Assembly (NCBI GenBank): GCA_017882905.1
Contig: JADGOO010000033.1
Location: 1 to 47,721, forward strand
DNA from: Acidimicrobiia bacterium
GTDB lineage: Bacteria; Actinomycetota; Acidimicrobiia; IMCC26256; PALSA-610
Reading direction: 5' to 3'
Length of the DNA: 47,721 nucleotides
Shown: positions 12,146 to 36,387 of the stretch, one piece after another
Position numbering within the stretch: position 1 is the first letter of the stretch
How the letters are laid out: every line of letters begins with the position of its first letter
The notes under the pieces: generated by a model
What the model saw: only the letters and a program-made list of their open reading frames with translations
Database searches by the model: none
What the model was told of the DNA's origin: nothing
Translations under genes and position numbers: made by a program

Positions 12146-13540
12146 TCACCCACTCCAGACCGCGTGCCGCTCGAGGTAGCGGCCGGTGGCGGGCTCGGCG
12201 ATGCAGCGTCCGCGTTCGGCCACGAGCCGGCCGCGTGACCACACCGCCCGCGGCCAACCGGTGGTCGTGTGCCCGGCATACGGCGAGTGGTCCACAGCCA
12301 TGTGGAGGTCGCCCGCGGCCAGCCCCTGGGCATGCCGGGGATCCCACACCACCACGTCGGCGTCGCTCCCGATCTGCAGCGATCCCTTGGCGGGCCAGAG
12401 GCCGAACGTGCGCGCGGGCGCCTCGGCGCAGAGGCGAACCCAATCGGCGACGGTGATGCGCCCCGCGCGCACGCCGTCCCACACGAGCGCGAGGCGCGTC
12501 TCGATACCGGGCAATCCACCGGGGATCTCGGTGAAGTCGCGATAGCCGTCGGCGCGGGCTTGCGTGCCCGCGCGGCGATCGTGCATCCAGAAGGGACAGT
12601 GATCGGTGGCCACGGTGTGGATCCAACCGCGTGCCAGACCTTCCCACAGCTCGTCGGCGTGCCATGCGTCGCGCAGCGGCGGCGTGCACACGAAGTTCGC
12701 GCCGTCGTCGCGTTCGAGTGCCGACACGTCGAGGTACAGGTACTGCGGGCACGTCTCGGCAGCGATCCGCACGCCGCGCTCTTGCGCTTCCCGAACGGCG
12801 GCGAGCGCGGGCGCACTCGACAGGTGCACCACGTAGGCGTCGGCATCCGCCTGTTCGGCAAGGCGCGCCGCGCGTGCGGTGGCCTGCGCTTCGAGCTGCG
12901 CCGGTCGTGTGTTGGCGTGCTCGATCACACCCGTGCGGCCCGCAGCGAGTGCGGCTTGGCGCAACGATTCGATCGCGTCACCGTCTTCGCAGTGCAGCGT
13001 GACGAGTGCACCGTGCTTGCGAGCGTGGCGCATGATCTTCAGGATCGTGTCGTCGTCCACCTGCAACAGCTCGGGATACGCCATGTAGAGCTTGAAGCTC
13101 GTGACGCCGCGCGCCACGCAATCGGCGATCATGCGTTCCGGGACCGGTTCGGTGAACGTCATGTGGAGCCCGTAGTCGATGACGGACGGCTCGGCCCAGC
13201 TCTGCCATGTGGCTAGCGCGGCCAAGGGGTCTTCACCGCGGTACGCGGTCACGTAGTCGATGATCGTGGTCGTGCCCCCGATCGCGGCCGCGCGTGTTCC
13301 GGTGTCGAAGTCGTCGCTGACCCGCACGTTGCCCACTGGCAGGTGCAGGTGCGTGTGCACGTCGACACCGCCCGGCACGACGTAGCAGCCCGCGGCGTCG
13401 TAGGTGTCGTCGTCGGCCGTTGCATCGAGACCCGCGCTGACCGTGGCGATGCGACCGTCGGAGCCGAGGCGCACATCGGCGATGCGCTCCCCGTCGCAGT
13501 CGACGACGGTGCCGCCACGCACCAGCGTCGTACGGCTCAT
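12146..13540 (-). CDS. hydA: cyclic amidohydrolase: dihydropyrimidinase / D-hydantoinase
   Basis: A zinc-dependent enzyme that opens dihydropyrimidine or 5-substituted hydantoin rings to N-carbamoyl acids. The 464-residue protein shows the full binuclear metal set: HTHLHLP near residue 59-65, the lysine to be carbamylated in SFKLYMAYP, LHCEDGD, VHLSSAP and the final Asp in ATDHCPFWMHD. Length is typical. ATG 13540 overlaps the preceding dpaL stop as ATGA. In the E. coli purine cluster a hydantoinase of this type (HyuA/YgeZ) also sits close to the diaminopropionate lyase YgeX. Its products would be substrates for the two carbamoylases at the head of this operon. Confidence 0.93.
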   Translation of the reverse strand: MSRTTLVRGGTVVDCDGERIADVRLGSDGRIATVSAGLDATADDDTYDAAGCYVVPGGVDVHTHLHLPVGNVRVSDDFDTGTRAAAIGGTTTIIDYVTAYRGEDPLAALATWQSWAEPSVIDYGLHMTFTEPVPERMIADCVARGVTSFKLYMAYPELLQVDDDTILKIMRHARKHGALVTLHCEDGDAIESLRQAALAAGRTGVIEHANTRPAQLEAQATARAARLAEQADADAYVVHLSSAPALAAVREAQERGVRIAAETCPQYLYLDVSALERDDGANFVCTPPLRDAWHADELWEGLARGWIHTVATDHCPFWMHDRRAGTQARADGYRDFTEIPGGLPGIETRLALVWDGVRAGRITVADWVRLCAEAPARTFGLWPAKGSLQIGSDADVVVWDPRHAQGLAAGDLHMAVDHSPYAGHTTTGWPRAVWSRGRLVAERGRCIAEPATGRYLERHAVWSG

Positions 13541-14682
13541 GCCTTCGTGACGTCGGGCGCACCGGGGGCGTGGCCGACGATCTGCTCGTAGCTCTCCGGG
13601 TCGGTGGCGCCTTCGGTGACCAGCAGGAGGACCGTGGCATCGTCGGTGAGCCCCACGAGGTCGCGGCCGCCGAGCTCGATCACGCCGAGCGCGCCGGCGA
13701 GGGCGGCCGCGCCGGTCTCGCCCGCTTCGATGCCGTCGGCGGCGAGCAGGCGCATGGCTTGTTCGGCGCGGCCGTCGTGCACGGTGACGCACCAGTCGAG
13801 CCCGGCCAGCAGGACCGGGAAGGCGATGAGGGAGGCGTTGCCGCAGTTGAGCCCGACCATCATCGATCGGTGCGGACCGGGAACCTCCACCATGTGTCCG
13901 TCGCGGACCGAAGCGAGCACGCACGCCGCGTCGGCCGGCTCCACGCTCACGAGCTTCGGCCGTGGCACGTGGTGCGCGTAGGCCGCCACACCGCTCGCCG
14001 CGAGCGCTCCGACTCCGGCCGGCAGCATCACCACGCTGACGGTGCTTTGTCCGGCGAGCTGGTCGTCGATCTCCGCGAAGATCGTCGCGTAGCCCTCGAT
14101 CACGTGGCGCGGAGTGTCTTCGTAACCGGGCCACGACGTGTCGGAGATGACCACGCAGTCGTCGCTCTGCATCGCCGCGCTCTGCGCCACGGCATCGTCG
14201 TAGGTGCCATCCACGAGCACCACGGTGGCGCCTTCACTCTTGATCGCGGCGATGCGCGCCGCGGTCATGTCATCGGGCACGAAGATCGTCGCATCGAGCT
14301 CGAGCAGCTTCGCCATGCGCGCCACGGCGCGGCCGTGATTCCCGTCGGTGGCCGCGGCGAGACGCAGCGGCCGCAGCGGCGCGACCGCGACGCGGAGCTC
14401 GTCGATCGTGGACCACTGCGGCTCGCCGCCGAGCCGCGCCACGAGCGCACGGTACGTGGCCCACGACGCGCCGAGCATCTTGAACGCGGGCAGCCCGAGC
14501 CGGTCGGACTCCACCTTCACGAGCACGCGTGCCACGCCGAGTCGCGCGGCGAGCGCGGGAGATTCGCGCAGGGGAGTGGGCGCGTAGCCGGGCAGCTTGC
14601 GGTGCAGCTCGAGCGGCTCGCGTGTCGATGCGAACGGCACCGGATCGTCCGATCGGTGCGGGTTCTTCAGGAGCTCTTCCAC
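13537..14682 (-). CDS. dpaL: 2,3-diaminopropionate ammonia-lyase (PLP enzyme)
   Basis: DpaL/YgeX is a fold-type II PLP enzyme that turns 2,3-diaminopropionate into pyruvate and two ammonia. In the 381 residues, GLPAFKMLGASWATYRAL carries the PLP lysine, ATDGNHGRAVARMA the phosphate-side Asn/His-Gly motif, VMLPAGVGALAASGVAAYA the Gly-rich phosphate loop, and EGATDPESYEQIVG closes the protein as in the family. Threonine dehydratases differ in these segments (SxKxRG, SxGNHAQG). GTG 14682 shares one base with the stop of the preceding oxidoreductase gene. Its presence in a purine/hydantoin operon is the clearest hint that the route ends at diaminopropionate. Confidence 0.88.
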   Translation of the reverse strand: MEELLKNPHRSDDPVPFASTREPLELHRKLPGYAPTPLRESPALAARLGVARVLVKVESDRLGLPAFKMLGASWATYRALVARLGGEPQWSTIDELRVAVAPLRPLRLAAATDGNHGRAVARMAKLLELDATIFVPDDMTAARIAAIKSEGATVVLVDGTYDDAVAQSAAMQSDDCVVISDTSWPGYEDTPRHVIEGYATIFAEIDDQLAGQSTVSVVMLPAGVGALAASGVAAYAHHVPRPKLVSVEPADAACVLASVRDGHMVEVPGPHRSMMVGLNCGNASLIAFPVLLAGLDWCVTVHDGRAEQAMRLLAADGIEAGETGAAALAGALGVIELGGRDLVGLTDDATVLLLVTEGATDPESYEQIVGHAPGAPDVTKA

Positions 14683-15683
14683 TAGATGCCGCCCGCGAAC
14701 GCGTCGATCATCAGGCGCGCGTCGGCACCGAGCGGATACAGGATCGGGCACGTGCAACCGTGATCGATGTAGCGCTGCACCTGCTCGCGGCACTCTTCGG
14801 CGGTCCCGCTCGCGGTGAGCATCTGCACCACGTCGTCGGGTACGAGCTTGCTCGCGGCGACCACTTGTTCGTGCGTTGCCGGCCAGGTGAGCACCTTGCC
14901 GATCTCGTCGAGCACCGATTCGGGCACGCCGCTCGCCTTCATGATGTGCGGCTGCTGACCGAGGTACTGCGTGACCATGAGCCGCGCGTCGTCGAGCGCG
15001 CGGGCACGATCGGGGTCGAGTGAGCACACGACGAGCTGCGGTCGGTCGAGGTCGTCGACGCTGCGTTTGGCCCGCGCGGCTCCCACTTCGAGATGCTGCA
15101 TCGCTCGCTCGTTGTAGTCGGGTGACACGAGGTAGTTCAGCACCACACCGTCGGCGATCTCGCCGGTGAGCTCCATCATCTGCATCCCCGTCGCCCCGAT
15201 GTAGATCGGCACGTCCTTCGCGCGGCGCTCTTGATACACGTAGTCGAGCTCCACGCCGTCGAGGTGCACGTACTCACCGTCGAACGTGACCGTCTCGTTG
15301 TGCAGGAGCGCTCGAACCGTGGTCACGATCTCGCGCATCACCGTGATCGGCCGGGCCCGTGAGATCCCCACCTTGGCGGCCAGCGGATCCCACCACGCGC
15401 CGATCCCGAGGAGCACTCGCCCGGGCGCGAGATCGTCGAGCGTGGAGAACGTGGCCGCGAGCCGCGCCGGGTTGCGGCTCCAGCAGTCGACCACGCCCGA
15501 GCCCACCTTGATGCGCTCGGTGGTGGCGGCGAAGGCAGCCATCGGTACGGTCGCCTCGCGCACGAGACGGCTCTCGGCCTGCCAGACCGCATGGAAGCCC
15601 TGTTGTTCGGCGTACTGCGCGAGGGCCATCGCTTCGCGCAGTGGATGCGCATCCTGCAGGTAGATCGCCACCGGGGTCGTCAT
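14682..15683 (-). CDS. F420-dependent LLM-class oxidoreductase
   Basis: A 333-residue luciferase-like TIM-barrel oxidoreductase. Features are the N-terminal [17 protein letters not shown] segment, [47 protein letters not shown] (typical of the F420/methylene-H4MPT reductase-like group) and the [26 protein letters not shown] segment. Actinobacterial members mostly use coenzyme F420, though FMN use cannot be excluded from sequence. It lies between the SsnA-like gene and dpaL in one operon, which suggests it reduces or oxidises an intermediate of that pathway. The related gut-bacterial clusters have a different reductase, YgfK, at this point. Confidence 0.85.
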
Positions 15684-15722
15684 CGCGCTCCTGATCGTGT
15701 ACGAGCCGTGGGGTTGATCTTC

Positions 15723-16748
15723 TCAGAGCCGAGCGAACAAGCGCCGAGCATGGCGCGCCGCGGTGGCTCGCACCTCGTCGGGGTCGACCCGCGTGGCGAT
15801 GCCATCACGCAGCATCGTCTCGCCGTCGATCACCACCTCACGGGCGCGCAGCCCCGGCGAGAACGCCACGAACCACGGATCATCGGCGCCATCAGCCGAC
15901 CACGTGACCGTGTCGCCGCGGGCTTCGGGCACGAGGTCGTAGCCGGCCTCGAGCCAGCGCCACACGGTGGTCGGTGTCTCGGTCACGTCGTGTTCTCGGA
16001 GCCGCACGTAGGCGAGTCGCACCTCCTCGAGCATGTCGGCGCCGATGCCGTCGGTGCCGAGGACGACACGGTTCGAGAAGCGCGCCGGGCGTCCGTAGCC
16101 GACCGCGTTGTTCATGTTGCTGCGCGGGTTGTGCGCGATGAGACCGCGCAGACCAGCGTGCTCGTCGAGCTGCACGCAGTGCACGAGCAGCCAATCATCA
16201 GCCGTGAGGTGCGCGAGACGCTTCGGCGCGTCGATGTCGTCGACGGCTTCGGCCACATGGATGTGCACGCCCACGCCGAGATCGCTCGCGAGTCCCGCCG
16301 CGGCCTCGATGGTCGCGTCGCTGCAGGTGAAGGCCGCGTGCAGCCCCACAAAGCCTCGTCCGCCGGCGCGCAGGAACCGCTCGTTCTCGGCCAGCCCGCG
16401 ACCGGCGCCTTCGGGACCGTGCCGATCGGTGGCGCCGTACGCGCAGAGCACTCGCACGCCGACCTCGGCACACGCATCGGCGATCACCGTGAGCGAGCCT
16501 TCGATCGCGTTCGGCGACTCGTGATGGTCGATGATCGCCGTCGTACCGCACTCGAGTGCTTCGAGTGCGCCGAGGCGCGCCGCGGCGCGGATCATCTCGA
16601 GATCGAGGGCCACGTCGACGCGCCACCAGATCTGCTCGAGGATCTCGATGAATCGCGTCGGTGTCTTCGGAGGCGCCGGCATGCCTCGCGCCAGCGCCGA
16701 GTAGAGGTGATGGTGCGCGCACACCATCCCGCCGGTGGTGCGGCTCAT
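15723..16748 (-). CDS. ssnA: SsnA-like amidohydrolase lacking the N-terminal domain
   Basis: A deaminase-type amidohydrolase related to SsnA and guanine deaminases. The metal motif AHHHLYSALARGM appears at residue 11, directly after the start, whereas full-length family members (about 440 residues) carry some 50-60 residues of beta-sandwich first. The rest is intact: LECGTTAIIDHHESP, VHIHVAEAVDD, WLLVHCVQLD, NPRSNMNNAVG and RVVLGTDGIGAD with the catalytic Asp. A C-terminal strand REVVIDGETML of the beta-sandwich remains. ATG 16748 overlaps the XdhD-like stop as ATGA, leaving no room for a longer start. In E. coli ssnA also lies next to xdhD. The name is by homology and context; the substrate is unknown. 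Confidence 0.78.
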   Translation of the reverse strand: MSRTTGGMVCAHHHLYSALARGMPAPPKTPTRFIEILEQIWWRVDVALDLEMIRAAARLGALEALECGTTAIIDHHESPNAIEGSLTVIADACAEVGVRVLCAYGATDRHGPEGAGRGLAENERFLRAGGRGFVGLHAAFTCSDATIEAAAGLASDLGVGVHIHVAEAVDDIDAPKRLAHLTADDWLLVHCVQLDEHAGLRGLIAHNPRSNMNNAVGYGRPARFSNRVVLGTDGIGADMLEEVRLAYVRLREHDVTETPTTVWRWLEAGYDLVPEARGDTVTWSADGADDPWFVAFSPGLRAREVVIDGETMLRDGIATRVDPDEVRATAARHARRLFARL

Positions 16749-19429
16749 GGCGAGCTGGGATCGGTGACACCCGCGGCCGCCGGCCGGCCCATCGGCAGCG
16801 TGGCGCGCCACTCGCCGTCGCGATCGTGCAGCGCCGCCGCCACGGCACCGGCCGTGGGGACCAGACCGATCTCGCCCACGCCTTTGATCCCGTACGGCGC
16901 GCGGGGTTGTGGTGCTTCGACCAGGATCACGTCGACCGGCGGCATGTCCTTGGCCCGCAAGATGCCGAGGCTGCGCAGCGTGGTGTTCACGGGGCGGCCG
17001 TTGTCGTCGGACGGGAACTGTTCGGTGAGCGCGTAGCCGAGACCCATGTGCACGGCGCCTTCGATCTGGCCCTCACACAGCTGCGGGTTCACCGCTCGTC
17101 CCACATCGTGCGCGGCCACGACCCGTTCGATCGCGCCGCTCTCGCGATCGAGGATGACGAGCTGCGCGGCGTACCCGAACGCCGAGTGGATCACCGGATT
17201 CTCGAGCCCCTCGGACAGCGCGCTCGTCCAATCCACACGGAACTCGCCGTCGTAGTCGATGCCCACGCGGCAGCCGTCGGCGACCGCGGCCCGGCACGCT
17301 TCGGCCACCGAGCCCGCGCCCATGAGAGTGCCGCGTGAGCCAGTGGTCTGGCCGGCGCCGAGCTCACGTGTGGTGTCGACGACGACGCGCACGCGGGCCG
17401 GGTCGATGCCGAGCTCCTCGACAGCCACCTGCAACGCCACCGTGTGCACGCCTTGGCCCATCTCGGTCCAGCAGTGGCGGACCTCGACGGTGCCGTCGGG
17501 TTCGAATCGGACGACGGCGCGCGCCACTTCCTTGAAGCCGTTGCCGAGGCCACTGTTCTTCAGGCCGAGACCCACGCCGACCGCCTTGCCTTCGGCCCGA
17601 GCCGCGTCGTAGTACGGCTTGACGGCGTCGAGACATTGGCGAACTCCGGCACAGCCGTCGTCCATGATCTGACCGGGGCCCCACACCACACCGGGCTCGA
17701 TCGCGTTGCGAGCGCGGATCTCCCAACCGCTGATGCCCACCTGCTCGGCGAGCCGATCGAGCACGCCTTCCATCGCGAACTGCGCCTGGTTGGCGCCGAA
17801 CCCTCGGAACGCGCCGCACACGGGGTTGTTGGTGCGCGCCGCCACAGCTTCCACGTCGATGGTGGGCAGGTGATACGGCCCGCTCGCGTGGCCCGCCGCG
17901 CGTTCGAGCACCTTCATACCCACGCTCGCGTAGGCACCGGAATCGCCGACCATGCGCGCCTTGAGCGCGGTGAGCTTGCCGTCGGCGTCGCAGCCGGCCC
18001 AGTACTCCATCCGGATCGGGTGCCGCTTGGGATGCATCAACAGGCTCTCTTCGCGAGAGAGCGTGCACTTCACCGGTCGTTGCACGAGCCAGGCCGCCAG
18101 CGCAGTCTGCGCCTGGTTGCTCATGTCTTCCTTGCCGCCGAACGCTCCGCCGTTGCTCACGAGCTCGACGGTGACGCGGTCCTTGTCGACGTCGAGCACG
18201 GCCGCGATCTGGTCGCGGTCGTCCCAGACGCCTTGACCGCCCGAGTACACGTGCAACGTGCGGCTGGTGAGATCAGGTACCGCGAGCGTGGCTTCCGGCT
18301 CCAGGAAGGCGTGTTCGATGCGCTGCGTCTGGAAGATCTCGTGCACCACGTGCGAGCTCGCGGCCAAGGCCGTCTCCACATCGCCGCGCGCGTACACGGA
18401 TCGAGAGAGCACGTTGGTCTCGGTGCCCCAGACGGCGATCTCTTCGTCGATGACGGCGGCGGCCGCGTCGGTGATCGTTCGCAACGGCGTGTACTCGACG
18501 GTGACGAGCGAAGCCGCATGACGCGCAACCTCGCGATCGCCGGCGACCACGACGGCGATCACGTCGCCGAGGTAGCTCGTGCGGCCGCCCTCGGGGATGA
18601 AGACCGGCCAATCCTTGTGGATGATGCCGACTCGCAACGTGCCCGGAACGTCGGCCGCGGTGAAGACCGCCTCGACGCCGGGGAATGCGCGCGCCGCGGC
18701 CGTGTCGATGCGCACGACCTCGGCGCGCGCGTGATCGGTGAGGCGCAGCGCCGCGTGCAACATGCCCTCGACCCGGAGATCGTCGACATAGCCACGGTCG
18801 CCGAGCGCCAACGCCTCGGCCTCGTACTTCGCTCCGTTGCTGCCGATGCCGTGCGGCAATGTCGTAGGCGCAACGTCGGCGCCCGAGGCGAGCAGGTCGA
18901 TCGCGTCGAGGATCTTGATGTAGCCGGTGCAGCGGCACAGGTGGGAGCCGAGCAGGCGGGCGACTCCATCGCGGTCGTCGGCCTTGCCGCGGTCGAGTAG
19001 CGACTTGGCGCGCATCACGATCCCCGGTGTGCAGAAGCCGCACTGCAACGCCCCGCACGCCGCGAACGCGCGGGCGTACCGGTCGCGTTCGGCATCGTCG
19101 ACGCCTTCGAGGGTGAGGACGGTCTTGTCCGTGACCTTCGTCATCGACGTCTGGCACGCGACCACGGCCTTGTCGTCGATGATCACCGTGCAACAGCCAC
19201 ACTGACCGGTGGGGGAGCAGCCGTCCTTCGGTGATGTGACGTTCAGCTCCTCGCGCAATGCCGCGAGCAGGTGTGGGTGGTCGGAGCGCACCGTGACCTC
19301 GGCGCCGTTCAGTGTGAACGTCGTGCCCCCCTCGCTCGCACGGCCGCTTCGAGCCTCGGCGGGCCGGGCGTCTTCGTCCCCCGCTCGGCCGTGGCTCGCG
19401 CCCCCTGGGGCATTGTGGATCACGGTCAT
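16745..19429 (-). CDS. xdhD: XdhD-type molybdenum hydroxylase ([2Fe-2S] and Mo domains fused)
   Basis: An 894-residue fusion resembling E. coli XdhD and the family annotated as selenium-dependent xanthine dehydrogenase. Residues 1-35 are a variable Gly/Ala/Arg-rich lead. Residues about 36-175 hold two [2Fe-2S] clusters: Cys71, Cys77, Cys80 and Cys92 (GCSPTGQCGCC ... AC), and Cys130, Cys133, Cys165 and Cys167 (QCGFCTPG ... LCRCTGY). The molybdopterin domains follow, with GGAFGGKEDMSNQ, CGAFRGFGANQAQFAMEG, TGSRGTLMGAG and the catalytic Glu in IKGVGEIGLVPTAGA. There is no FAD domain, so electrons leave by an external partner. The same frame stays open to 20410 across the nitrilase gene, but homology starts only here; ATG 19429 lies 12 bp after that gene. 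Confidence 0.88.
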   Translation of the reverse strand: MTVIHNAPGGASHGRAGDEDARPAEARSGRASEGGTTFTLNGAEVTVRSDHPHLLAALREELNVTSPKDGCSPTGQCGCCTVIIDDKAVVACQTSMTKVTDKTVLTLEGVDDAERDRYARAFAACGALQCGFCTPGIVMRAKSLLDRGKADDRDGVARLLGSHLCRCTGYIKILDAIDLLASGADVAPTTLPHGIGSNGAKYEAEALALGDRGYVDDLRVEGMLHAALRLTDHARAEVVRIDTAAARAFPGVEAVFTAADVPGTLRVGIIHKDWPVFIPEGGRTSYLGDVIAVVVAGDREVARHAASLVTVEYTPLRTITDAAAAVIDEEIAVWGTETNVLSRSVYARGDVETALAASSHVVHEIFQTQRIEHAFLEPEATLAVPDLTSRTLHVYSGGQGVWDDRDQIAAVLDVDKDRVTVELVSNGGAFGGKEDMSNQAQTALAAWLVQRPVKCTLSREESLLMHPKRHPIRMEYWAGCDADGKLTALKARMVGDSGAYASVGMKVLERAAGHASGPYHLPTIDVEAVAARTNNPVCGAFRGFGANQAQFAMEGVLDRLAEQVGISGWEIRARNAIEPGVVWGPGQIMDDGCAGVRQCLDAVKPYYDAARAEGKAVGVGLGLKNSGLGNGFKEVARAVVRFEPDGTVEVRHCWTEMGQGVHTVALQVAVEELGIDPARVRVVVDTTRELGAGQTTGSRGTLMGAGSVAEACRAAVADGCRVGIDYDGEFRVDWTSALSEGLENPVIHSAFGYAAQLVILDRESGAIERVVAAHDVGRAVNPQLCEGQIEGAVHMGLGYALTEQFPSDDNGRPVNTTLRSLGILRAKDMPPVDVILVEAPQPRAPYGIKGVGEIGLVPTAGAVAAALHDRDGEWRATLPMGRPAAAGVTDPSSP

Positions 19430-19440
19430 GGCGTCAGCTT

Positions 19441-20379
19441 TCAGGGTGGCGGGGGGATGGCGCCGCGGCGCTCGGTGATGAGGCCGTACACCTCGGGCCG
19501 GCGGTAGCGGTCGAAGTCGAAGAGCGTGTGCTTGTACTGGGCGCACCGGTCGAGGTCGCATTCGGCCACCACGACCTCGTCGCCGGCCGTGGTGCACTGT
19601 GCGACGATCTGGCCCGACGGGGCCACGATCACCGACTGTGCGAGCGCGTCGACGCCTTCCTCCACGCCACACTTGGCGACGCCCACGACCCACATGCCGT
19701 TCTGGTAGGCGCCCGATTGCAGCACGAGATGATTGTGGAAACCGGCGAGCGCGTCCTGCGTGGGGTCGGGCGCGTAGTGGATCGGCGTGTTGTAACCGAT
19801 CAACGCGAGCTCGCAGCCCTGCAATGCGAGCACTCGGTACGTCTCGGGCCACCGACGATCGTTGCAGATCGCCATGCCCACGATGCCGCCGAACGCGCGC
19901 CACACGTCGAACGAAGAACCCGGCTCGAAGTAGCGGCGTTCGAGATGCTGGAACGGTCGCCACGGTTCGTGTTCCTCGTGGCCCGGGAGATGCACCTTGT
20001 GGTACTTGCCCACGATGGCGCCCCGGCCGTCGACGAGGATGCTCGTGTTGTAGCGGTGGCGCGTGCCGGAGCTGTCGTCGGCCTCGGCATAGCCGAACGA
20101 GAAGCCGATCCCGAGCCGGAGCGCTTCGTCGAAGAGCGGTTTCGTGGCCGCCGACGGCATCTCCGTCTCGAAGAACACATCGACCTCGGCCCAGTCGGCA
20201 AAGAACCAACGAGGAAAGAAGGTGGTGAGGGCGAGCTCGGGGAACACGACGAGCTGCGCGCCGCCGGCACGGGCGCGGTGCAACAACGCGATCATCCGAT
20301 CGACGACGTCGGCACGGGGCTCGTCGCGTGCGATCGGTCCCATCTGTGCCGCCGCGATCCGCACCGACCGATCCGTCAT
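19441..20379 (-). CDS. N-carbamoyl-D-amino acid hydrolase (nitrilase superfamily)
   Basis: A 312-residue carbon-nitrogen hydrolase very similar to the D-carbamoylase used in hydantoin routes, which releases ammonia, CO2 and a D-amino acid. The catalytic triad is visible: Glu48 in FPELALTTFFPRW, Lys in GKYHKVHLPGHEEHEPWRPFQHLE, and Cys in GMAICNDRRWPETYRV. The surrounding segments (GFSFGYAE, RRYFEPG, YNTPIHYAPDP, YQNGMWVVGVAK) follow that subfamily closely. ATG 20379 overlaps the M20 gene stop as ATGA. Being between an L-type carbamoylase and the XdhD-like gene, it probably removes a ureido group from a ring-opened intermediate. Confidence 0.92.
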   Translation of the reverse strand: MTDRSVRIAAAQMGPIARDEPRADVVDRMIALLHRARAGGAQLVVFPELALTTFFPRWFFADWAEVDVFFETEMPSAATKPLFDEALRLGIGFSFGYAEADDSSGTRHRYNTSILVDGRGAIVGKYHKVHLPGHEEHEPWRPFQHLERRYFEPGSSFDVWRAFGGIVGMAICNDRRWPETYRVLALQGCELALIGYNTPIHYAPDPTQDALAGFHNHLVLQSGAYQNGMWVVGVAKCGVEEGVDALAQSVIVAPSGQIVAQCTTAGDEVVVAECDLDRCAQYKHTLFDFDRYRRPEVYGLITERRGAIPPPP

Positions 20380-21704
20380 GACTCCCGCTCCCCGATCTGC
20401 GCAGGGGCACCCCGGTCCGCGTCGTCGAGCAGCGCCGATTCGGTGCTGAGGGCGAGCAGGGTGTGGAGGAGCACGTTCGCGCCGGCCTCGAGGTCGGCGG
20501 GGTCGGTGTGCTCGGCGACGTTGTGCGACAAGCCCTTGTGGCTCGGTACGAAGATCATCCCTGTGGGGCACACGCGCGCCAGCATCTGCGCGTCGTGGCC
20601 CGCGCCCGACGGCATGCGCCGAACGGAGTACCCGAGCGTGCGTGCCGTGTCGTCGACGAGTGCGATCACGCGCTCGTCGAATTCCACCGGCTCGAAGCGC
20701 GCGGTGGAGCGGCTCTCGATCTCGACGTGTTCGTCGGACGCGATCGTGGCGACGGCATCGGCAAGGAGCTCTTCGGCGCGGCGCAGCTCGGCTTCGTCGG
20801 TGTTGCGCAGGTCGACGGTGAGCGTTGCGCGCCCCGCGACGACGTTCACGAGATCGGGTTGCAGGCGCAGTGATCCGACGGTGCCCACCTGGTGGCGACC
20901 GACTGCCGCGATGACCTCGCGGACCGCGACGGCGATCCGGGCCGCCGCGTGGCCGGCGTCGTGGCGCATCGACATGGGCGTGGTGCCGGCGTGGTTCGAC
21001 TGACCGGTGACGCTGATCTCCTGCCACGAGATGCCCTGCACGCTCGTGACCGCGCCGATGGTGATGCCGGCGGCTTCGAGCACTGGGCCCTGTTCCACAT
21101 GCACCTCGACGAACGCGTGCGGAGGCGGACCCGGACACGGGAACGGGCCCCCATAGCCGATGCGCGCGAGCTCGTCGCCGAGACGCGCGCCGTCGATGCC
21201 GATCGTGTCGAGTGCAGTCTCGACGTCGAGCCCGCCCGCGTACACGAGCGAACCGAGCATGTCGGGTGGGAAGCGCGCGCCCTCTTCATCGGTGAAGAAG
21301 GCGACGGCGATCGCGCGATCCGTGCTGATGCCGGCGCGCTCGAGCGTCTCGATGACCTCGAGGCCGGCCAGCACGCCGAAGGTGCCGTCGTACTTGCCGC
21401 CGGTTCGGACGCTGTCGATGTGGGAGCCGCACATCACCGGCGCGAGATCGGGTCGGCGGCCGCCTCGGGTGGCGATCACGTTGCCGATGGCGTCGATGTG
21501 AACGTCGAGCCCGAGGTCGTGCATCCACGCGACGACCACCTCACGCGCGTCGCGGTCGTGTTCGGTCAACGCGAGGCGACACACGCCACCGCCGTCGATG
21601 GCGCCGACTGCGGCGAGGTCCGTGAGCCGGTCGAGGAGCCGGGCGCCGTCGACGCGCAGCTCGGCCGCGGCATCGGAGCGCGCGCGCACCGGCTCGGCCA
21701 TCAT
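20376..21704 (-). CDS. M20-family N-carbamoyl-L-amino acid hydrolase / allantoate amidohydrolase
   Basis: A 442-residue binuclear metal hydrolase, first gene of the long minus-strand operon. Metal ligands can be seen in CGSHIDSV (His), GKYDGTFGVLAG (Asp), FFTDEEGARFPP (Glu-Glu), AFVEVHVEQGP (His) and KGLSHNVAEHT (His). QGISWQEISVTGQSNHAGTTPM marks the lid domain of the hydantoinase/carbamoylase branch (HyuC, AmaB, AllC). Such enzymes hydrolyse ureido groups of carbamoyl-L-amino acids, ureidopropionate or allantoate. The start is ATGATG at 21704/21701. A three-codon ORF (ATG 21712) ends in a TGA overlapping this ATG. The operator at 21725-21739 lies just upstream. Confidence 0.9.
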   Translation of the reverse strand: MMAEPVRARSDAAAELRVDGARLLDRLTDLAAVGAIDGGGVCRLALTEHDRDAREVVVAWMHDLGLDVHIDAIGNVIATRGGRRPDLAPVMCGSHIDSVRTGGKYDGTFGVLAGLEVIETLERAGISTDRAIAVAFFTDEEGARFPPDMLGSLVYAGGLDVETALDTIGIDGARLGDELARIGYGGPFPCPGPPPHAFVEVHVEQGPVLEAAGITIGAVTSVQGISWQEISVTGQSNHAGTTPMSMRHDAGHAAARIAVAVREVIAAVGRHQVGTVGSLRLQPDLVNVVAGRATLTVDLRNTDEAELRRAEELLADAVATIASDEHVEIESRSTARFEPVEFDERVIALVDDTARTLGYSVRRMPSGAGHDAQMLARVCPTGMIFVPSHKGLSHNVAEHTDPADLEAGANVLLHTLLALSTESALLDDADRGAPAQIGERES

Positions 21705-21724: not shown

Positions 21725-21739
21725 TTTACAAAAAGTCAA
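21725..21739 (-). promoter_or_regulatory. operator copy 1, in front of the M20-to-amidohydrolase operon
   Basis: Read on the minus strand the 15 bases are TTGACTTTTTGTAAA. They match the perfect palindrome TTGACATTTTGTCAA at 22460-22474 in 13 of 15 positions. They end 20 bp before the M20 start codon and overlap a possible -10 box TGTAAA (21730-21725). A/T-rich tracts are rare in this GC-rich window, which makes the match stand out. Confidence 0.7.
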
Positions 21740-21810
21740 GAAGGCCCCAAATGCGACGGCCGCTCGCTCAGACGTCCGTCACGCACGACGTTCGGTGACC
21801 GGGGCTCTCG

Positions 21811-21823
21811 TACACTCGCCGCG
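21811..21823 (+). promoter_or_regulatory. leaderless promoter, TACACT -10
   Basis: TACACT (21811-21816) ends 7 nt before ATG 21824 with no Shine-Dalgarno in between. It drives the thiamine-binding-type protein and probably the regulator gene that follows. Confidence 0.55.
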
Positions 21824-22066
21824 ATGGCACGCTTGCGGGCTGAGTTCACCGTTGAGCCGTTTGCCGACGGCGCACCCGGACCGCATGTGCGGGCTGCGAT
21901 CGAGGCCGCCGAGCACACCGGCCTCGAGCCCGATGTGGGTCCGTTCGGGACGACGATCGAGGGCGACGAACCGATCGTGTCGGAGGCAGTCGGCGCGCTG
22001 GTGACCGCCGCGTTCGCGGCCGGCGCCACCCGAGTCTCGATGACAGTCGAGCGAGCGAGCCAGTGA
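21824..22066 (+). CDS. MTH1187/UPF0045-type thiamine-binding domain protein
   Basis: A small 80-residue cytoplasmic protein of the MTH1187/YkoF-like family: FTVEPFADGAPGPHVRAAIEAAEHTGLEPDVGPFGTTIEGDE and the closing GATRVSMTVER follow the family consensus. Members form ferredoxin-like-fold oligomers, and some bind thiamine or its pyrimidine moiety. The ATG lies 8 nt after a TACACT -10 box, so the mRNA is probably leaderless. It is followed after 22 bp by the regulator gene. A small-molecule buffering or sensing role beside the regulator is possible but unproven. Confidence 0.75.
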   Translation: MARLRAEFTVEPFADGAPGPHVRAAIEAAEHTGLEPDVGPFGTTIEGDEPIVSEAVGALVTAAFAAGATRVSMTVERASQ

Positions 22067-22088
22067 AGAACGAGCGGGGCTGAGTCGG

Positions 22089-22463
22089 GTGGCGCGCCGT
22101 CATCCGCTGCTCGCGGCTGTGCAGCCCGTGGCCGACGCGCTCGGTGCGACGGTGGTGGCGCGCACGCGACTTGAGCCGAGTGACATCCCGCTGCAGTGGG
22201 AGGGGGAGGTCGTCGGCGGTCTGCGGCTGCCCGATCGCCAGGTGGGCCTGGCGCCGTTGATCGCGGAAGTGGAACGCGAGCTCGGTGCGCCGCTCGGTGA
22301 TCTGTCGCGCGAGGACAAGCAGCAGGCGGTGCGCTTGCTCGAGGCGAGAGGTGCGTTCACGTTGCGCAAGAGCATCGAAGACGTCGCCGACGCGATCGGT
22401 GTGAGCCGCATCACGGTCTACAACTATCTGCACGCTGTCCGTGACGCGGGGGCCGACGCTTGA
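22089..22463 (+). CDS. short YheO/DauR-type HTH regulator, candidate controller of both flanking operons
   Basis: A 124-residue protein. The C-terminal half (LSREDKQQAVRLLEARGAFTLRKSIEDVADAIGVSRITVYNYLHAVR, about residues 75-120) matches the helix-turn-helix that ends YheO/DauR regulators. The N-terminal half (about 1-70, HPLLAAVQPVADALGATVVARTR ... WEGEVVGGLRLPDRQVGLAPLI) is about half the length of the PAS-like sensor domain in those proteins, so it is either a reduced sensor or a different one. The gene lies between two divergent catabolic operons, each preceded by the same palindrome. The first arm of operator copy 2 starts inside its last codons. The start is GTG 22089, without a strong ribosome-binding site. 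Confidence 0.75.
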   Translation: MARRHPLLAAVQPVADALGATVVARTRLEPSDIPLQWEGEVVGGLRLPDRQVGLAPLIAEVERELGAPLGDLSREDKQQAVRLLEARGAFTLRKSIEDVADAIGVSRITVYNYLHAVRDAGADA

Positions 22464-22488
22464 CATTTTGTCAACCAGTCGGTTGGAT
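22460..22488 (+). promoter_or_regulatory. promoter with operator copy 2 and a second inverted repeat
   Basis: TTGACA-TTT-TGTCAA (22460-22474) is a perfect 15-bp palindrome whose left arm is also a consensus -35. TTGGAT (22483-22488) is the -10 after a 17-nt spacer, and ATG 22498 follows by 9 nt. A second, TetR-like inverted repeat CAACC-AGTC-GGTTG (22472-22485) fills the spacer and overlaps the -10. Two proteins could therefore compete here. Confidence 0.78.
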
Positions 22489-22497
22489 GGATCGACG

Positions 22498-23343
22498 ATG
22501 ACGGTGCTGGCGCCCACCGATCTCGACGGCGCGCTCGCGGCGTTGGCCGAGCGGCCTGATGCGACCGTCCTCGCCGGCGGCACCGACTTGATGGTCGAGC
22601 TGAACTTCGGCCATCGACGCGCCGGCGTGTTCGTGAGCCTGCGTCGAGTGCGCGAGCTGCGCGAATGGAGCCGCGTCGGTGATGAGCTGACGATCGGCGC
22701 GACGGTTACCTACACCGGCCTCGAACGAGGTCAGATCGCGACGCTCGTGCCTGCACTCGCGCAGGCGGCGCGCACAGTGGGATCGCCGCAGATCCGCAAT
22801 GCGGGAACGATCGGGGGCAATCTCGCAACCGCGTCGCCCGCGGGCGACACCTTGCCCGTGCTGAGCGCGCTCGACGCGGTTGTGGTGTGCGCGAGCGCGT
22901 CGGCGGGCCGGCGCGAAGTATCCGTGCACGACTTCCTGGTTGGTCCGAAGCGTTCGGCGCTCGCGGCGGGCGAGCTCGTGGTGGCGGTGCGCGTTCCGGT
23001 GCTCAGCGGTCCGCAGGAGTTCTTGAAGGTGGGCACGCGCAACGCGATGGTGATCTCGATCGCGGGTGTCGCGCTCGTGACCGACGCCGCGCGCGGCGGG
23101 CTGCGTTGCGCGCTCGGCAGTGTGGGGCCCACGGCGCTGCGTGCCGCGGATGCCGAGTCGTTCGCGGCCACGGCCGTGGAGTGGCCGAGTCGTCGCGCCA
23201 CACCGGAGGCGGCCATCGAGTTCGGGCGGCTCACGGCGGGTGCCGCGCGTCCTATCGACGACCATCGGGCGACGGCGCACTACCGGCGGCATGCCGTCGA
23301 GGTGTGCGCCCGGCGTGCCTTCGAGCGCGTGACGCTGCGATGA
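22498..23343 (+). CDS. xanthine dehydrogenase-type FAD-binding subunit
   Basis: The 281-residue medium subunit (CoxM/XdhB type) passes electrons from the iron-sulfur subunit to FAD. The FAD site is seen in ATVLAGGTDLMVELNFG (about 22-38) and in QIRNAGTIGGNLATASPAGDTLPVLSALDA (about 99-128); the C-terminal CO-dehydrogenase flavoprotein domain follows. ATG 22498 is used because it lies directly behind the promoter at 22460-22488; the same frame is open to 22441 but that would run through the operator. It is the first gene of a five-gene operon and overlaps the next by ATGA. Confidence 0.9.
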   Translation: MTVLAPTDLDGALAALAERPDATVLAGGTDLMVELNFGHRRAGVFVSLRRVRELREWSRVGDELTIGATVTYTGLERGQIATLVPALAQAARTVGSPQIRNAGTIGGNLATASPAGDTLPVLSALDAVVVCASASAGRREVSVHDFLVGPKRSALAAGELVVAVRVPVLSGPQEFLKVGTRNAMVISIAGVALVTDAARGGLRCALGSVGPTALRAADAESFAATAVEWPSRRATPEAAIEFGRLTAGAARPIDDHRATAHYRRHAVEVCARRAFERVTLR

Positions 23344-23822
23344 CCTACGCATTGCACGTCAACGGAGCCGAGCATCACGTGGCCGATGGCTGGCCGGGCG
23401 AGAGCCTGCTCTACGTGCTGCGCGAGCGCATCGAGCTGCCCGGTGCGAAGAACGCGTGCGAACAGGGCGAGTGCGGTAGCTGCTCGGTGCTGGTCGACGG
23501 TCTGCTCGTGTGCAGCTGCCTCGTGCTCGCCGAGAGCGTGTCGGGGTGCGAGATCGAGACGATCGAGCGTCACTCGGCGCTGAGTCGCGTGCAGCAGGCC
23601 TTCGTGGATGCCGGTGCGGTGCAGTGCGGCTTCTGCACGCCTGGGCTGGTCGTGGCGATCGAGGATCTGCTCGATCGCGAGCCGGAACCCGACGAGCTGA
23701 CCGTTCGCGAAGCCATCTCGGGCAACTTGTGCCGCTGCACCGGGTATGGCCGGATCCTGGAAGCGGTGCGCCGCGCGGTGGCCGACCCGCGTGCGGCCGT
23801 GCCACCGACGGAACCGTCATGA
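23340..23822 (+). CDS. xanthine dehydrogenase-type [2Fe-2S] subunit
   Basis: The 160-residue small subunit carries two [2Fe-2S] clusters. The plant-ferredoxin-type site is ACEQGECGSCSV with the later CSC (about residues 40-61). The C-terminal four-helix site is VQCGFCTPG (about 96-104) and LCRCTGYGRI (about 131-140). All eight cluster cysteines are present. It overlaps both neighbours by ATGA, the usual FAD / iron-sulfur / molybdenum order of a three-subunit molybdenum hydroxylase, and should form a heterohexamer with them in the cytoplasm. Confidence 0.92.
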   Translation: MTYALHVNGAEHHVADGWPGESLLYVLRERIELPGAKNACEQGECGSCSVLVDGLLVCSCLVLAESVSGCEIETIERHSALSRVQQAFVDAGAVQCGFCTPGLVVAIEDLLDREPEPDELTVREAISGNLCRCTGYGRILEAVRRAVADPRAAVPPTEPS

Positions 23823-26008
23823 CGACCACGCGCACGCAAGCCCGCGCACCTCGCGTGGGCGAGAGCGCGCTGCGCCCCGACGGGATCCCGAAGGTGCAGG
23901 GCCGATTCCTGTTCGGGAACGATCTGTGGGCCGACGGCATGTTGTGGGGCAAGACGTTGCGCTCGCCGCACGCACACGCGCGCATCGCCCGGATCGACGT
24001 GACGCCCGCACTCGCGATGACGGGCGTGTTCGCCGTGCTCACGGCCGACGACGTTCCTGGCTCCGGGGTCTTCGGGCTCGAGCAGGCCGACCAGCCGGTG
24101 TTCGCGAGCGGCGTGGTCCGCTATGTGGGCGAACCGATCGCGGTGGTCGCAGCCGATCATCCGGAGCTGGCTCGCCGGGCATGCGAAGCGATCGTCGTGG
24201 AGTACGAGGTGCTCACGCCGCTCGTCGATTCGCAAGCGGCGATCACGGCGGCGGCGATCCACCCCGACGGCAACATCTTGCGCCATCTCGTGATCCGCCA
24301 CGGTGACATCGACGCCATCGGCGACGTGGTCGTGGAGGGCATCTACGAAGTGGGCATGCAGGACCAGGCTTTCATGGGCCCCGAGAGCGGTCTGGCGATC
24401 CCCGACGACGACGGCGGGGTGCAGCTGTTCGTGTCGACGCAGTTCGTGCACGCGGATCGAGATCAGACGGCCGCCTGCCTCGGACTTCCCCCCGACATGG
24501 TCCGGGCCACCGTGGCGGGCACGGGCGGCGCGTTCGGCGGTCGCGAAGACATCTGCCTGCAGGTGCACGTGTGCCTGCTCGCGTTGCGCACCGGGCGGCC
24601 GGTCAAGATGCTCTACAGCCGCGATGAGAGCTTCGTCGGGCACGTGCATCGCCACCCGGCGCGCATGGAGTACCGCCATCACGCGCGTCGTGACGGCACG
24701 ATCGTGAAGGTCGAAGCTCGCGTGGTGTTCGACGGCGGCGCCTACGCGTCGACGAGCAGTGCGGTGCTGGCCAACGCGTGTTGCTTCGGGGCCGGTCCGT
24801 ACCGCGTGCCGAACGCGTTCATCGAAGGCTGGGCCGTGCGCACGAACAATCCGCCGTGCGGCGCGATGCGAGGGTTCGGTGCGGTGCAGACGTGCTTTGC
24901 GCACGAGGCCCAGATGGACAAGCTCGCCGATGCGCTCGCCATCGACCGCGTGGAGCTCCGGCTCCGCAACGCCCTTGAACCGGGCGACACGATCATCACG
25001 GGTCAGCGCATCACCGGCACCGCGCCCGTGGCGGCGGTGATCCGCGCCTGCGCCGACGCGCCGTTCCCGGCCGGCGCGGAGCTCGACCCTGACAGCGAAT
25101 CGGCTCCGATGCTGTTGCGGCCGGGAGGCGCGGGCCGTACGGCCGATGCCCGTCACGTGACCCGCGCGCTCGGCTTCGCCGTCAGCTACAAGAATCTCAT
25201 GTTCTCCGAAGGTTTCGACGACTACTCGACCGCGCGTGTCCGGGTGGAGGACGGCATTGCCACGGTGCACTGCGCGTGCGCGGAAGTGGGCCAGGGGTTC
25301 GTGACGCTGGCCCAGCAGATCGCCCGTGAGGTGCTCGACATCGACGAGGTGGTGCTCGCACCGGCCGACACACACGTGGGGTCGGCGGGATCCACCAGCG
25401 CGAGCCGCCAGACCTGGATGAGCGGCGGCGCGGTCGAAGGCGCGTGCCGGCTCGTGAAGGCGCAGATGGAGGCCGACGCGGCCGCGGGCACGGTGCAGCG
25501 CGTGTACGAGGCCACGTTCGAACACCATCACGCGCCCACACAGCGACTCGACGAGAACGGGCAGGGCGACGCGCACGTGTCGTTCGCGTTCGCGGCCCAC
25601 CGTGCGGTGGTCGATGTGGACCGCGACCTCGGTCTGGTGCGGGTGGTCGATGTGACCACCGCCCAGGACGTGGGCCGGGTGCTGAACCCGGTGCAGGCGC
25701 TCGGCCAGATCGAAGGGGGCATCGCGCAAGGTGTGGGGCTCGCCGTGATGGAGGAGCTCGTTGTCGACCAGGGCCGGATCCGCAACGCGAGCTTCACCGA
25801 CTACCTGATCCCCACGGCGCTCGACATGCCGACGGTCACGGTGGCCGCGCTGATCGAGGAGCCGGAGCCGGGCGCACCGTTCGGCGCGAAGGGGATCGGT
25901 GAGCCGCCGACCATCTCGTCGACTGCGGCGGTGGCCGCTGCGATCCGTGCCGCGACGGGCCGTGCGGTCGACCGTGTGCCGGTGCGTCCCGACGACCTCC
26001 TGTTCTGA
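23819..26008 (+). CDS. xanthine dehydrogenase-type molybdopterin subunit (PucD-like)
   Basis: The 729-residue catalytic subunit holds molybdopterin. Landmarks are VGESALRPDGIPKVQGRFLFGNDL near the start, QDQAFMGPESGLA, GTGGAFGGREDICLQ, PCGAMRGFGAVQTCFAHE and the catalytic Glu in GAKGIGEPPTISSTAAVAAAI. The active-site loop is AMRGFGAVQ, unlike the AYxCSFR loop of true CO dehydrogenase, so a purine or other N-heterocycle hydroxylase is likelier. Length and layout resemble PucD of Bacillus. Its ATG overlaps the previous stop. The downstream deaminase follows after 79 bp. Confidence 0.9.
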   Translation: MTTTRTQARAPRVGESALRPDGIPKVQGRFLFGNDLWADGMLWGKTLRSPHAHARIARIDVTPALAMTGVFAVLTADDVPGSGVFGLEQADQPVFASGVVRYVGEPIAVVAADHPELARRACEAIVVEYEVLTPLVDSQAAITAAAIHPDGNILRHLVIRHGDIDAIGDVVVEGIYEVGMQDQAFMGPESGLAIPDDDGGVQLFVSTQFVHADRDQTAACLGLPPDMVRATVAGTGGAFGGREDICLQVHVCLLALRTGRPVKMLYSRDESFVGHVHRHPARMEYRHHARRDGTIVKVEARVVFDGGAYASTSSAVLANACCFGAGPYRVPNAFIEGWAVRTNNPPCGAMRGFGAVQTCFAHEAQMDKLADALAIDRVELRLRNALEPGDTIITGQRITGTAPVAAVIRACADAPFPAGAELDPDSESAPMLLRPGGAGRTADARHVTRALGFAVSYKNLMFSEGFDDYSTARVRVEDGIATVHCACAEVGQGFVTLAQQIAREVLDIDEVVLAPADTHVGSAGSTSASRQTWMSGGAVEGACRLVKAQMEADAAAGTVQRVYEATFEHHHAPTQRLDENGQGDAHVSFAFAAHRAVVDVDRDLGLVRVVDVTTAQDVGRVLNPVQALGQIEGGIAQGVGLAVMEELVVDQGRIRNASFTDYLIPTALDMPTVTVAALIEEPEPGAPFGAKGIGEPPTISSTAAVAAAIRAATGRAVDRVPVRPDDLLF

Positions 26009-26087
26009 TGCCGGCCCGCTGTGAACAGGCCGTGAAGTCGATCTGCTCCGTTTGGCTGGCGGCGTGTGTCGCGGGCAAGGTGTCGGC

Positions 26088-27446
26088 GTGACCGCCCGCA
26101 CTCTCGTCCGCAACGGCATCGTGCTCCCGCTCGAGGGGCGCAAGGTGGTGTACGACCCGGGATCAGTGCTCATCGAGGGCAACGAGATCGTTGCCGTGGG
26201 CTCCACCGAGGCGATCGACGCCGACCCGCGAAGCGCCGGCGCGGTGATCGTGGATGCCACGAGCCACGCGGTGATCCCCGGACTGCACAACGGTCACCTG
26301 CACTCTGGGCTGCTGCGAGGCACCGCCGAGTCGATGTCGTTGTGGGACTGGCTCGAGGCCTACGTCGACCCTGCGCACAAGGCGCTCACGCCTGAGATCG
26401 CCGAAGCCGCGAGCATGCTCGCGTACACCGAGGGCGTGCGCTTCGGCACCACATCGGTGATGGACATGTGGCGGTTCATGGAGGGATCGGCGCGAGCTGC
26501 TGACGCGATCGGGATCCGCGCGACCTTGGTGCCGTACGTTGCCGACCTTCCCGGTTTCGACTACTTCGAGACGCTCGATTCGAACCTGGCTCTGTTGAAG
26601 TCGCATCGGGTGGCATCCGACGGGCGCGTGCGCACGTGGGTCGGTCTCGAGCACTTGCTCTACTGCTCGCCCGCCGCCTTCCGCCGCGCCGCCGAGATGG
26701 CGCTCGAGTACGACACCGGCATCCACACCCACTCGAGTGAGAGCATCTGGGAGGTGCAGGAGTCGCTCAAGCAGTTCGGGCGACGACCCATCGAGGAGTT
26801 CTACAACCGCGGCATCCTCTCGGATCACACGGTGGTCGCGCACTGCGTGTGGCTCGACGACCGCGAGATCGAGCTGCTCGCCCGCACGGGAACGAGCGCC
26901 GTGCACTGCCCGTGCTCGAACATGAAGCTCGCGTCGGGTCCGGCGCGCATCGGCGACATGCGCGCGGCCGGGATCGCGGTGGGCATCGGAAGCGACGGCG
27001 AGAAGGAGAACAACAACCTCGATCTCCTCGAGGAGATGAAGTTCGCGTCGCTGCTGCAGAAGGTCTCGTCGCTCGATCCCACGGTCGGCGACCCGTGGGA
27101 CATCCTCGATCTCGCCACATTGAGCGGCGCACGAGCGCTCGGCCTCGACGCGATCACCGGGTCCCTCGAGCCCGGCAAGCGCGCCGACATCGTGACCGTC
27201 GACCTGCGTCAGCCGCATCTCACACCCTTGCTCCACGGCGCCGACTTCAACGTGCCCGCCCATCTCGTGTTCTCGGCCAGCGGTCACGACGTGGACCACG
27301 TGTGGGTCGACGGGCGGCTGCTCGTGGAAGGCGGGACGGTGCTCTCGGTCGATGTCGGCGCCGTCATGCACACTGCGCAGGGCGCCGCCGAGGAGCTGTT
27401 CGAACGGCGCCGAGCGGTGCTCGAGGCGAAGGCGAAGGGATCGTGA
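26088..27446 (+). CDS. amidohydrolase of the TrzN/SAH-deaminase type
   Basis: A 452-residue mononuclear zinc or iron hydrolase that would remove an amino or other group from a heteroaromatic ring. Metal and catalytic residues are IPGLHNGHLHSGLLRGT (HxH), IHTHSSESIWE (His and catalytic Glu), VVAHCVWLDD (His) and VGIGSDGEKENNNLD (Asp). SNMKLASG is the usual substrate-loop segment. Characterised relatives include atrazine chlorohydrolases, guanine and SAH/MTA deaminases, so the exact reaction is open. GTG 26088 is preferred over a 12-residue longer frame. It lies in the operon behind the xanthine-dehydrogenase-type enzyme, whose hydroxylated product it may act on. Confidence 0.85.
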   Translation: MTARTLVRNGIVLPLEGRKVVYDPGSVLIEGNEIVAVGSTEAIDADPRSAGAVIVDATSHAVIPGLHNGHLHSGLLRGTAESMSLWDWLEAYVDPAHKALTPEIAEAASMLAYTEGVRFGTTSVMDMWRFMEGSARAADAIGIRATLVPYVADLPGFDYFETLDSNLALLKSHRVASDGRVRTWVGLEHLLYCSPAAFRRAAEMALEYDTGIHTHSSESIWEVQESLKQFGRRPIEEFYNRGILSDHTVVAHCVWLDDREIELLARTGTSAVHCPCSNMKLASGPARIGDMRAAGIAVGIGSDGEKENNNLDLLEEMKFASLLQKVSSLDPTVGDPWDILDLATLSGARALGLDAITGSLEPGKRADIVTVDLRQPHLTPLLHGADFNVPAHLVFSASGHDVDHVWVDGRLLVEGGTVLSVDVGAVMHTAQGAAEELFERRRAVLEAKAKGS

Positions 27447-28126
27447 GCGCCGCCGAGGTTTCGGCGTTCTATGACGAGCTCGTCGCCGAGCTCGATCGGC
27501 GGCGGGCGGCGCTCGACGATGAGGGCGCGACGTTCTTCAACCGTCCGCTGTCGGACCGCGAGCTCATCGAATGGCTGAGCTTCCAGGCTTACTACGAGAA
27601 GCGTGCGGCCGAGTTCATCGGCCGCTGGCTCGCCGACACACCCGAACCCGACGCCTTCGTGCTCCTCGCCCAGCAGGTGGAAGACGAGGCCATGCACTAC
27701 GAGTACTGCATGCGCGCGCTCGCCCGCCGCGGTGTCACATCCCTCGACGGCTGGGTGCCCGAACCCGAATGGGTCGAGTGGATCGATGTCTGGTACCCGT
27801 CAGGTGCCGACACGATCGAGCGAGTCGCGGCGCACAACCTCGCGGGCGAGCTCGGCGCGTGTCAGGCGTTCCTCGAGATCAAGCCGCGGCTACCTGAGGA
27901 CGTGCAGAAGACGTTCGATCGCATCATCCCCGATGAGCAGTTCCACATGCGCCTCGGTCGCCAAGTGATCGAGCGGTACGCGACCACCGACGACCAGCAA
28001 GCGCGCGTGCGCGAGCGGGTGCTGCACACGTTCGATCTCGAACAGGCCGGCCGTGTCGCGTACAACCGCCGGATGGTGCGCCTGGGTCTCGGTGAACCCG
28101 GCGACGCGGTGCCGCCACTTCCGTGA
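27443..28126 (+). CDS. ferritin-like diiron protein, putative oxidase
   Basis: A 227-residue helical protein. Candidate diiron ligands follow the ferritin-like E ... ExxH ... E ... ExxH order: AYYEKRAAEF, VEDEAMHYEY, NLAGELGACQAFLEIKPR and IIPDEQFHMRLG. It is not a storage ferritin or bacterioferritin by sequence; resemblance is to small oxidase- or hydroxylase-like families. GTG 27443 overlaps the deaminase stop as GTGA, so it is the last gene of the xanthine-dehydrogenase-type operon. Work on a product of that enzyme is an inference from this coupling only. Confidence 0.72.
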   Translation: MSAAEVSAFYDELVAELDRRRAALDDEGATFFNRPLSDRELIEWLSFQAYYEKRAAEFIGRWLADTPEPDAFVLLAQQVEDEAMHYEYCMRALARRGVTSLDGWVPEPEWVEWIDVWYPSGADTIERVAAHNLAGELGACQAFLEIKPRLPEDVQKTFDRIIPDEQFHMRLGRQVIERYATTDDQQARVRERVLHTFDLEQAGRVAYNRRMVRLGLGEPGDAVPPLP

Positions 28127-30622: not shown

Positions 30623-30628
30623 GAATGC

Positions 30629-30639
30629 ATCGTAGGAGG
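30629..30639. promoter_or_regulatory. overlapping minus-strand -10 box and plus-strand ribosome-binding site
   Basis: TACGAT on the minus strand (30634-30629) ends 6 nt before ATG 30622. On the plus strand AGGAGG (30634-30639) stands 9 nt before ATG 30649. The two signals touch, so the plus-strand gene must be transcribed from inside the 5' end of the minus-strand gene. Confidence 0.55.
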
Positions 30640-30648
30640 AGCGATTCG

Positions 30649-31602: not shown

Positions 31603-31617
31603 GCACGACCGTCGTGA

Positions 31618-32808: not shown

Positions 32809-32943
32809 TGGCTGTCAGTCTGCCCGTTCGCCGAGCGCGGCGTGAAGCCGCAACGGCCAAGTGTCACGCGCGCGTAACACTCCAACGGAGACGAAGTCGG
32901 CCGACCCGTGGTGGAATGGGCCTGTGCGCGCAGGGGCTCTCGA

Positions 32944-36298: not shown

Positions 36299-36304
36299 GG
36301 GCGC

Positions 36305-36310
36305 ACGCTA
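36305..36310 (-). promoter_or_regulatory. leaderless promoter, TAGCGT -10, for the orphan Mo hydroxylase
   Basis: TAGCGT on the minus strand stands 6 nt before ATG 36298, with sequence GCGCCC in between. The same hexamer and spacing precede hyuA at 6612-6617. Confidence 0.5.
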
Positions 36311-36375
36311 ACGGTGCGAACGCGCCCATCGCGCAGCCGGAACCGAGCGTTCACGCGTTCGGCGTCCCGATCGCC

Positions 36376-36381
36376 GAGAAT
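36376..36381 (+). promoter_or_regulatory. candidate leaderless promoter, GAGAAT -10
   Basis: GAGAAT ends 6 nt before GTG 36388, in frame with the deaminase paralogue. It supports that start over the upstream in-frame ATG at 36289, which would lie across the divergent gene's start. Confidence 0.4.
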
Positions 36382-36387
36382 GGCGCC

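Follow-up and report, generated by a model that had tools for sequence, protein, structure and literature searches.

Two inverted repeats as probable operators of an HTH_22 regulator shared by divergent purine-catabolism operons in an Acidimicrobiia bacterium

Two divergent operons predicted to make and break down urate in an Acidimicrobiia bacterium are probably switched together by a small HTH_22 regulator encoded between them, for which two 15-base inverted repeats in the operon promoters would serve as operators, most likely of a repressor. Judged from sequence comparison, we give this reading a probability of about 0.8. The stretch analysed (the window) is 47,721 nucleotides long and contains the following features.

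12146..13528, minus strand: D-hydantoinase/dihydropyrimidinase, HyuA-like (above the TIGR02033 cut-off; start approximate)
13537..14685, minus strand: diaminopropionate ammonia-lyase, YgeX-like (above the NF006058 cut-off; start approximate)
14682..15683, minus strand: luciferase-family F420-type oxidoreductase (family match)
15723..16811, minus strand: SsnA-like amidohydrolase (scores under the curated threshold of the SsnA models)
16745..19318, minus strand: XdhD-like molybdenum hydroxylase (above the TIGR03311 cut-off; start approximate)
19441..20379, minus strand: CN-hydrolase (PF00795), possibly ureido-cleaving (masked by a longer ORF in another frame)
20376..21704, minus strand: M20 amidohydrolase, allantoate amidohydrolase/YgeY-like, first gene of the operon (family profiles)
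21725..21739, minus strand: putative operator 2, TTGACTTTTTGTAAA, in front of the M20 operon (kept in loci L030, L031 and L032)
21824..22066, plus strand: Thiamine_BP family protein, 80 aa, probably the partner of the regulator (PF01910, E=1e-10, above the gathering score)
22089..22463, plus strand: regulator, 124 aa, GTG start (HTH_22, PF13309, residues 56-114, E=1e-19)
22460..22474, plus strand: putative operator 1, TTGACATTTTGTCAA, in front of the xanthine dehydrogenase operon (consensus -35 hexamer as its upstream arm)
22498..23343, plus strand: xanthine dehydrogenase FAD subunit, XdhB type (family profiles)
23340..23822, plus strand: xanthine dehydrogenase 2Fe-2S subunit, XdhC type (start approximate)
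23850..26008, plus strand: xanthine dehydrogenase molybdenum subunit (above the pucD cut-off; start approximate)
26052..27446, plus strand: TRZ/ATZ-type deaminase (family profiles)

Both 15-base sequences were found in the checked sequence where the initial annotation had placed them, and they are identical at 13 of 15 positions. Operator 1 had been called a perfect palindrome, which holds for its 6-bp arms, TTGACA and TGTCAA, but not for its TTT centre, and operator 2 is an imperfect inverted repeat. Their placement in front of the two operons was borne out: operator 1, which takes in the regulator's stop codon (22461-22463), starts 38 bp upstream of the xdhB ATG (22498), and operator 2 starts 35 bp upstream of the M20 start codon, an ATG (21704), with GATCAT 17 nt downstream of it and that ATG after a further 6 nt. 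The motifs had also been considered unlikely to occur by chance, and indeed TTGACNTTTTGTNAA with up to two mismatches matches twice in the window against 0.05 matches expected from shuffles. A genome-wide search, as proposed at the outset, returned operators 1 and 2 as the sole matches in 4.36 Mb at up to one mismatch, and none for the reversed control pattern. The relaxed motif TNRACANNNTGTYNA occurs at 12 places in the same genome against 2 for its reversed control, and these places are mostly GC-rich strings of the form TCGACAC..GTGTYGA.

From the enzyme families, the plus-strand operon is predicted to make urate and the minus-strand operon to break it down, so that the pathway predicted here is more specific than initially noted, namely xanthine to urate followed by reductive uricolysis. 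An XdhD homologue, HyuA, a YgeY-type M20 protein and a YgeX-type lyase, looked for as components of this pathway, were all found in the minus-strand operon. Its 362-aa SsnA-like ORF has SsnA models as its top NCBIfam matches (E=7e-73, with a score under their cut-offs), and an SsnA-family amidohydrolase is what we take to be the marker gene of the reductive uric-acid pathway. By these matches, the operon has nearly the gene set of that pathway in an F420-type variant, in which the CN-hydrolase may stand in for YgeW/UacY. The number of thirteen genes under the switch given earlier is about right, with seven genes on the minus strand and four or five on the plus strand in addition to the Thiamine_BP-HTH pair. 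A ferritin-like frame at 27440-28126 (plus strand, within the ORF 26849-28126) follows the deaminase gene and may belong to the plus-strand operon. Farther downstream, at 29231-38803, lie genes for 8-oxoguanine deaminase, adenosine deaminase, a third molybdenum hydroxylase, 2OG-Fe oxygenases and a transporter permease; these purine-type genes have no operator copies in the window, and related genes in L029 and L042 have such copies.

The initial proposal of one switch for both operons gains support from a comparison of orthologous intergenic regions, in which the palindromes are conserved: the repeats are kept at orthologous promoters, track the regulator across genomes and appear specific to purine loci. 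Regulator orthologues are present in 24 of 100 relatives. The site before the M20 gene is kept in three genomes of the same family with the same arrangement (G009, G006 and G012), one of which also has the site before xdhB; in the other two, xdhB directly follows the regulator gene with no separate site. In more distant relatives, a generalised inverted repeat, TYRACA-N3-TGTYRA, stands just before genes of purine catabolism. The relaxed motif TNRACANNNTGTYNA gave 16 matches in 24 loci, 14 of them near gene starts and most 25-35 bp upstream, compared with a mean of 0.48 in the same loci for 360 half-site-permuted palindromes. When 50 whole genomes were scanned, the strict motif TYRACAWWWTGTYRA was found in 11 of the 14 regulator holders of the order versus 1 of 21 non-holders, the sites of this lone non-holder being away from purine genes, and its reversed control had no match in the 50 genomes. 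Matches in G005, G088:C78 and G060, situated in coding or other DNA with no purine genes, were set aside. In G005, which has no regulator, operator-like strings at L161:8158 and L163:8085 have a common flank, TCAACATTTTGTCAACGCACCACGTC, and look like a dispersed repeat.

Among 80 named loci, mostly from Actinomycetota and many from Ilumatobacteraceae or Acidimicrobiaceae, the motif is present in 20 of the 24 that are purine-linked versus 3 of the other 56 (Fisher p=4e-12, a value that overstates independence because the loci are related; the genome counts are likewise not independent events). The purine-linked loci L083, L085, L087 and L125 have no motif match. In family f20 the Thiamine_BP-HTH pair usually lies apart from the purine genes, and in genomes with such an unlinked regulator (G073, G097, G088, G064 and G079) the sites are found before XdhD or M20 genes. 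The ssnA gene is present in 11 of 12 regulator holders tested versus 3 of 22 non-holders; in the stretches examined of these three genomes (G081, G087 and G063), a sample of three only, no comparable site was seen before purine genes, and G059 and G091 have the regulator and no strong site near ssnA. Taken together, the shuffles, the genome-wide scan, the permuted palindromes and the contrast between holders and non-holders rule out a chance origin of the two sites. A recurring neighbour of the clusters (L050:10285-11772, L159:7561-9114 and L166:6098-7648) is a PLP-dependent enzyme, some 500 aa long and with distant similarity to cysteine synthase, and in L159 and L166 its gene has its own operator copy.

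The regulator had been assigned to the YheO/DauR type, an assignment that stands for its C-terminal HTH_22 domain, for which hhalign against E. coli YheO gave 94% over residues 72-121, and not for its N-terminus. Pfam gave no match there to the YheO-like PAS domain (PF08348), and the possibility that this part is such a domain was discarded after its profile could not be aligned to the N-terminus of YheO. The N-terminal 50 or so residues are predicted to form a helix, three strands and a helix; a Foldseek search of the PDB with the predicted model (pLDDT 85 locally, pTM 0.51) returned nothing, and a PDB sequence search nothing useful. From these domain assignments, the protein is a variant of a known regulator type, with HTH_22 but no recognised PAS domain, and with a separate likely partner.

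This partner is probably the Thiamine_BP protein, encoded 22 nt upstream of the regulator gene and scoring below the curated TIGR00106 cut-off. Among 42 genomes, a homologue is present in all 20 that hold the regulator and in none of the 22 others, and since these non-holders include three ssnA genomes, Thiamine_BP tracks the regulator and not the pathway. Given this perfect co-occurrence, the simple switch first envisaged may need the Thiamine_BP gene besides the regulator, and the Thiamine_BP protein may act as its sensor. The two genes lie within 1.5 kb of each other in 59 of 70 loci, and in G079 the Thiamine_BP gene is inside the purine cluster with the regulator elsewhere; no Thiamine_BP gene was found near the regulator in a group of loci (L109, L117, L136, L141, L144, L147 and L157), marine ones among them. 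In the window, a TACACT element (21810-21823) lies 7 nt upstream of the Thiamine_BP start and is kept in four genomes of the same family (as TAGACT in one), which suggests a leaderless promoter clear of the operator.

TTGAC makes up the upstream arm of 33 of 37 aligned sites, and 12 of the 37 have a -10-like element, [TG]ANNNT, 17 or 18 nt farther on, versus 0-3 at other pairs of spacings. At several sites, including the M20 promoter of the window, the start codon comes 6-9 nt after this element, a short distance that suggests leaderless transcripts. The position of the operator over the -35 box would argue for repression. The HTH_22 regulator, most likely as a dimer, would bind the inverted repeats, which span the -35 box together with the first part of the spacer; once bound, it would deny RNA polymerase access to the two promoters until released from the DNA by a product of purine breakdown. 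The regulator has no recognised sensor domain, and the co-encoded Thiamine_BP protein may sense the ligand in its place.

The same regulator could instead act at these sites as an activator or dual regulator that recruits RNA polymerase, as some activators do use operators next to or over the -35 box. We regard this as unlikely, for the overlapped -35 hexamer, in most sites TTGACA, is so near the consensus that an activator is not usually required, and the operator reaches into the spacer. It is still less probable that a different, unlinked factor, such as a purine regulator of the GntR, TetR or MarR type, uses the motif as its operator, with the HTH_22 gene merely a member of the cluster. 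Short AT-rich inverted repeats are also used by GntR- and TetR-type regulators, but the motif tracks the HTH_22 gene across genomes, unlinked cases included, its sites often stand directly before the HTH or Thiamine_BP gene itself, and an unsystematic look at the clusters found no other recurring regulator. That the repeats are strong -35 boxes, palindromic by accident, seems very improbable: TTGACA does match the -35 consensus, and in one site out of three a -10-like element comes next, but this leaves unexplained why an inverted second arm is conserved within the spacer, and the motif occurs only twice in a 4.36-Mb genome and is concentrated at purine-linked loci. Plain promoter similarity is ruled out by the conservation of the second arm.

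A sample of the phylum contained 27 regulator holders in 397 genomes. In one genus with genomes of 7-10 Mb, by their size and gene content probably Streptomyces, the Thiamine_BP and HTH genes are adjacent in 10 of 10 genomes and TCAACA-N3-TGTTGA follows the pair in 9 of them. Behind the pair and operator, L220 has genes for OHCU decarboxylase, HIU hydrolase and uricase, L218 has one for OHCU decarboxylase, and L223, which belongs to another family, has genes for uricase and permease. In L218, a catalase gene beside the OHCU-decarboxylase cluster is preceded at 89 bp by a second copy of the operator (L218:11795-13341), a sensible position because uricase produces hydrogen peroxide. With uricase genes behind the same pair and operator, the regulator, its partner and the operator appear to be conserved in distantly related actinobacteria while the urate chemistry differs. 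It is possible, if somewhat short of an even bet, that this reflects a two-protein module widespread in actinobacteria, in which HTH_22 would read TYRACA-N3-TGTYRA, a Thiamine_BP-fold protein would sense a purine product, and uricase or F420-type routes would vary behind them.

In the literature on YheO/DauR, on Thiamine_BP proteins with regulators and on actinobacterial purine regulons, as far as covered (mostly non-subscription articles, with weak coverage of YheO/DauR), such a module was found undescribed. The analysis names an operator open to experimental test, a regulator and a probable partner protein for the breakdown of purines and urate across several lineages of actinobacteria. It also points to a possible function for a Thiamine_BP-family protein and links a mostly uncultured actinobacterial class to the reductive uric-acid pathway, which was defined recently. 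The motif can be used to find more members of the regulon, among which the PLP enzyme, dioxygenases and the catalase beside the OHCU-decarboxylase cluster already appear.

Compared with known systems, the regulator has the C-terminal HTH_22 in common with YheO/DauR, which combine it with a PAS-like domain. It differs from them in length (124 versus 240 aa), in an N-terminus that cannot be aligned and has no PAS-like domain found in it, in its pairing with a Thiamine_BP protein and in its link to purine genes. This Thiamine_BP protein matches PF01910 like the MTH1187/YkoF thiamine-binding proteins but, unlike them, has its gene next to that of an HTH_22 regulator and among purine genes. In S. 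coelicolor, SCO6209-6211 (hpxQ-hpxT-hpxO) encode OHCU decarboxylase, HIU hydrolase and uricase, the same three enzyme families as behind the operator in L220; their published control concerns SenS-SenR (PMC4991794) and not the HTH_22 protein. With the reductive uric-acid pathway as described in E. coli and C. difficile (PMC12507026), the minus-strand operon has the M20 (YgeY), XdhD-like, HyuA and YgeX families, and tentatively the SsnA-like one, in common, here in one operon, but a luciferase-family F420-type enzyme takes the place of YgfK/UacX, and the CN-hydrolase would be found where YgeW/UacY might be expected. Such a replacement of YgfK/UacX by an F420-type enzyme has been reported for Chloroflexota (PMC12507026), and the genes at 12146-21704 present an F420-type reductive uric-acid gene set in an actinobacterium.
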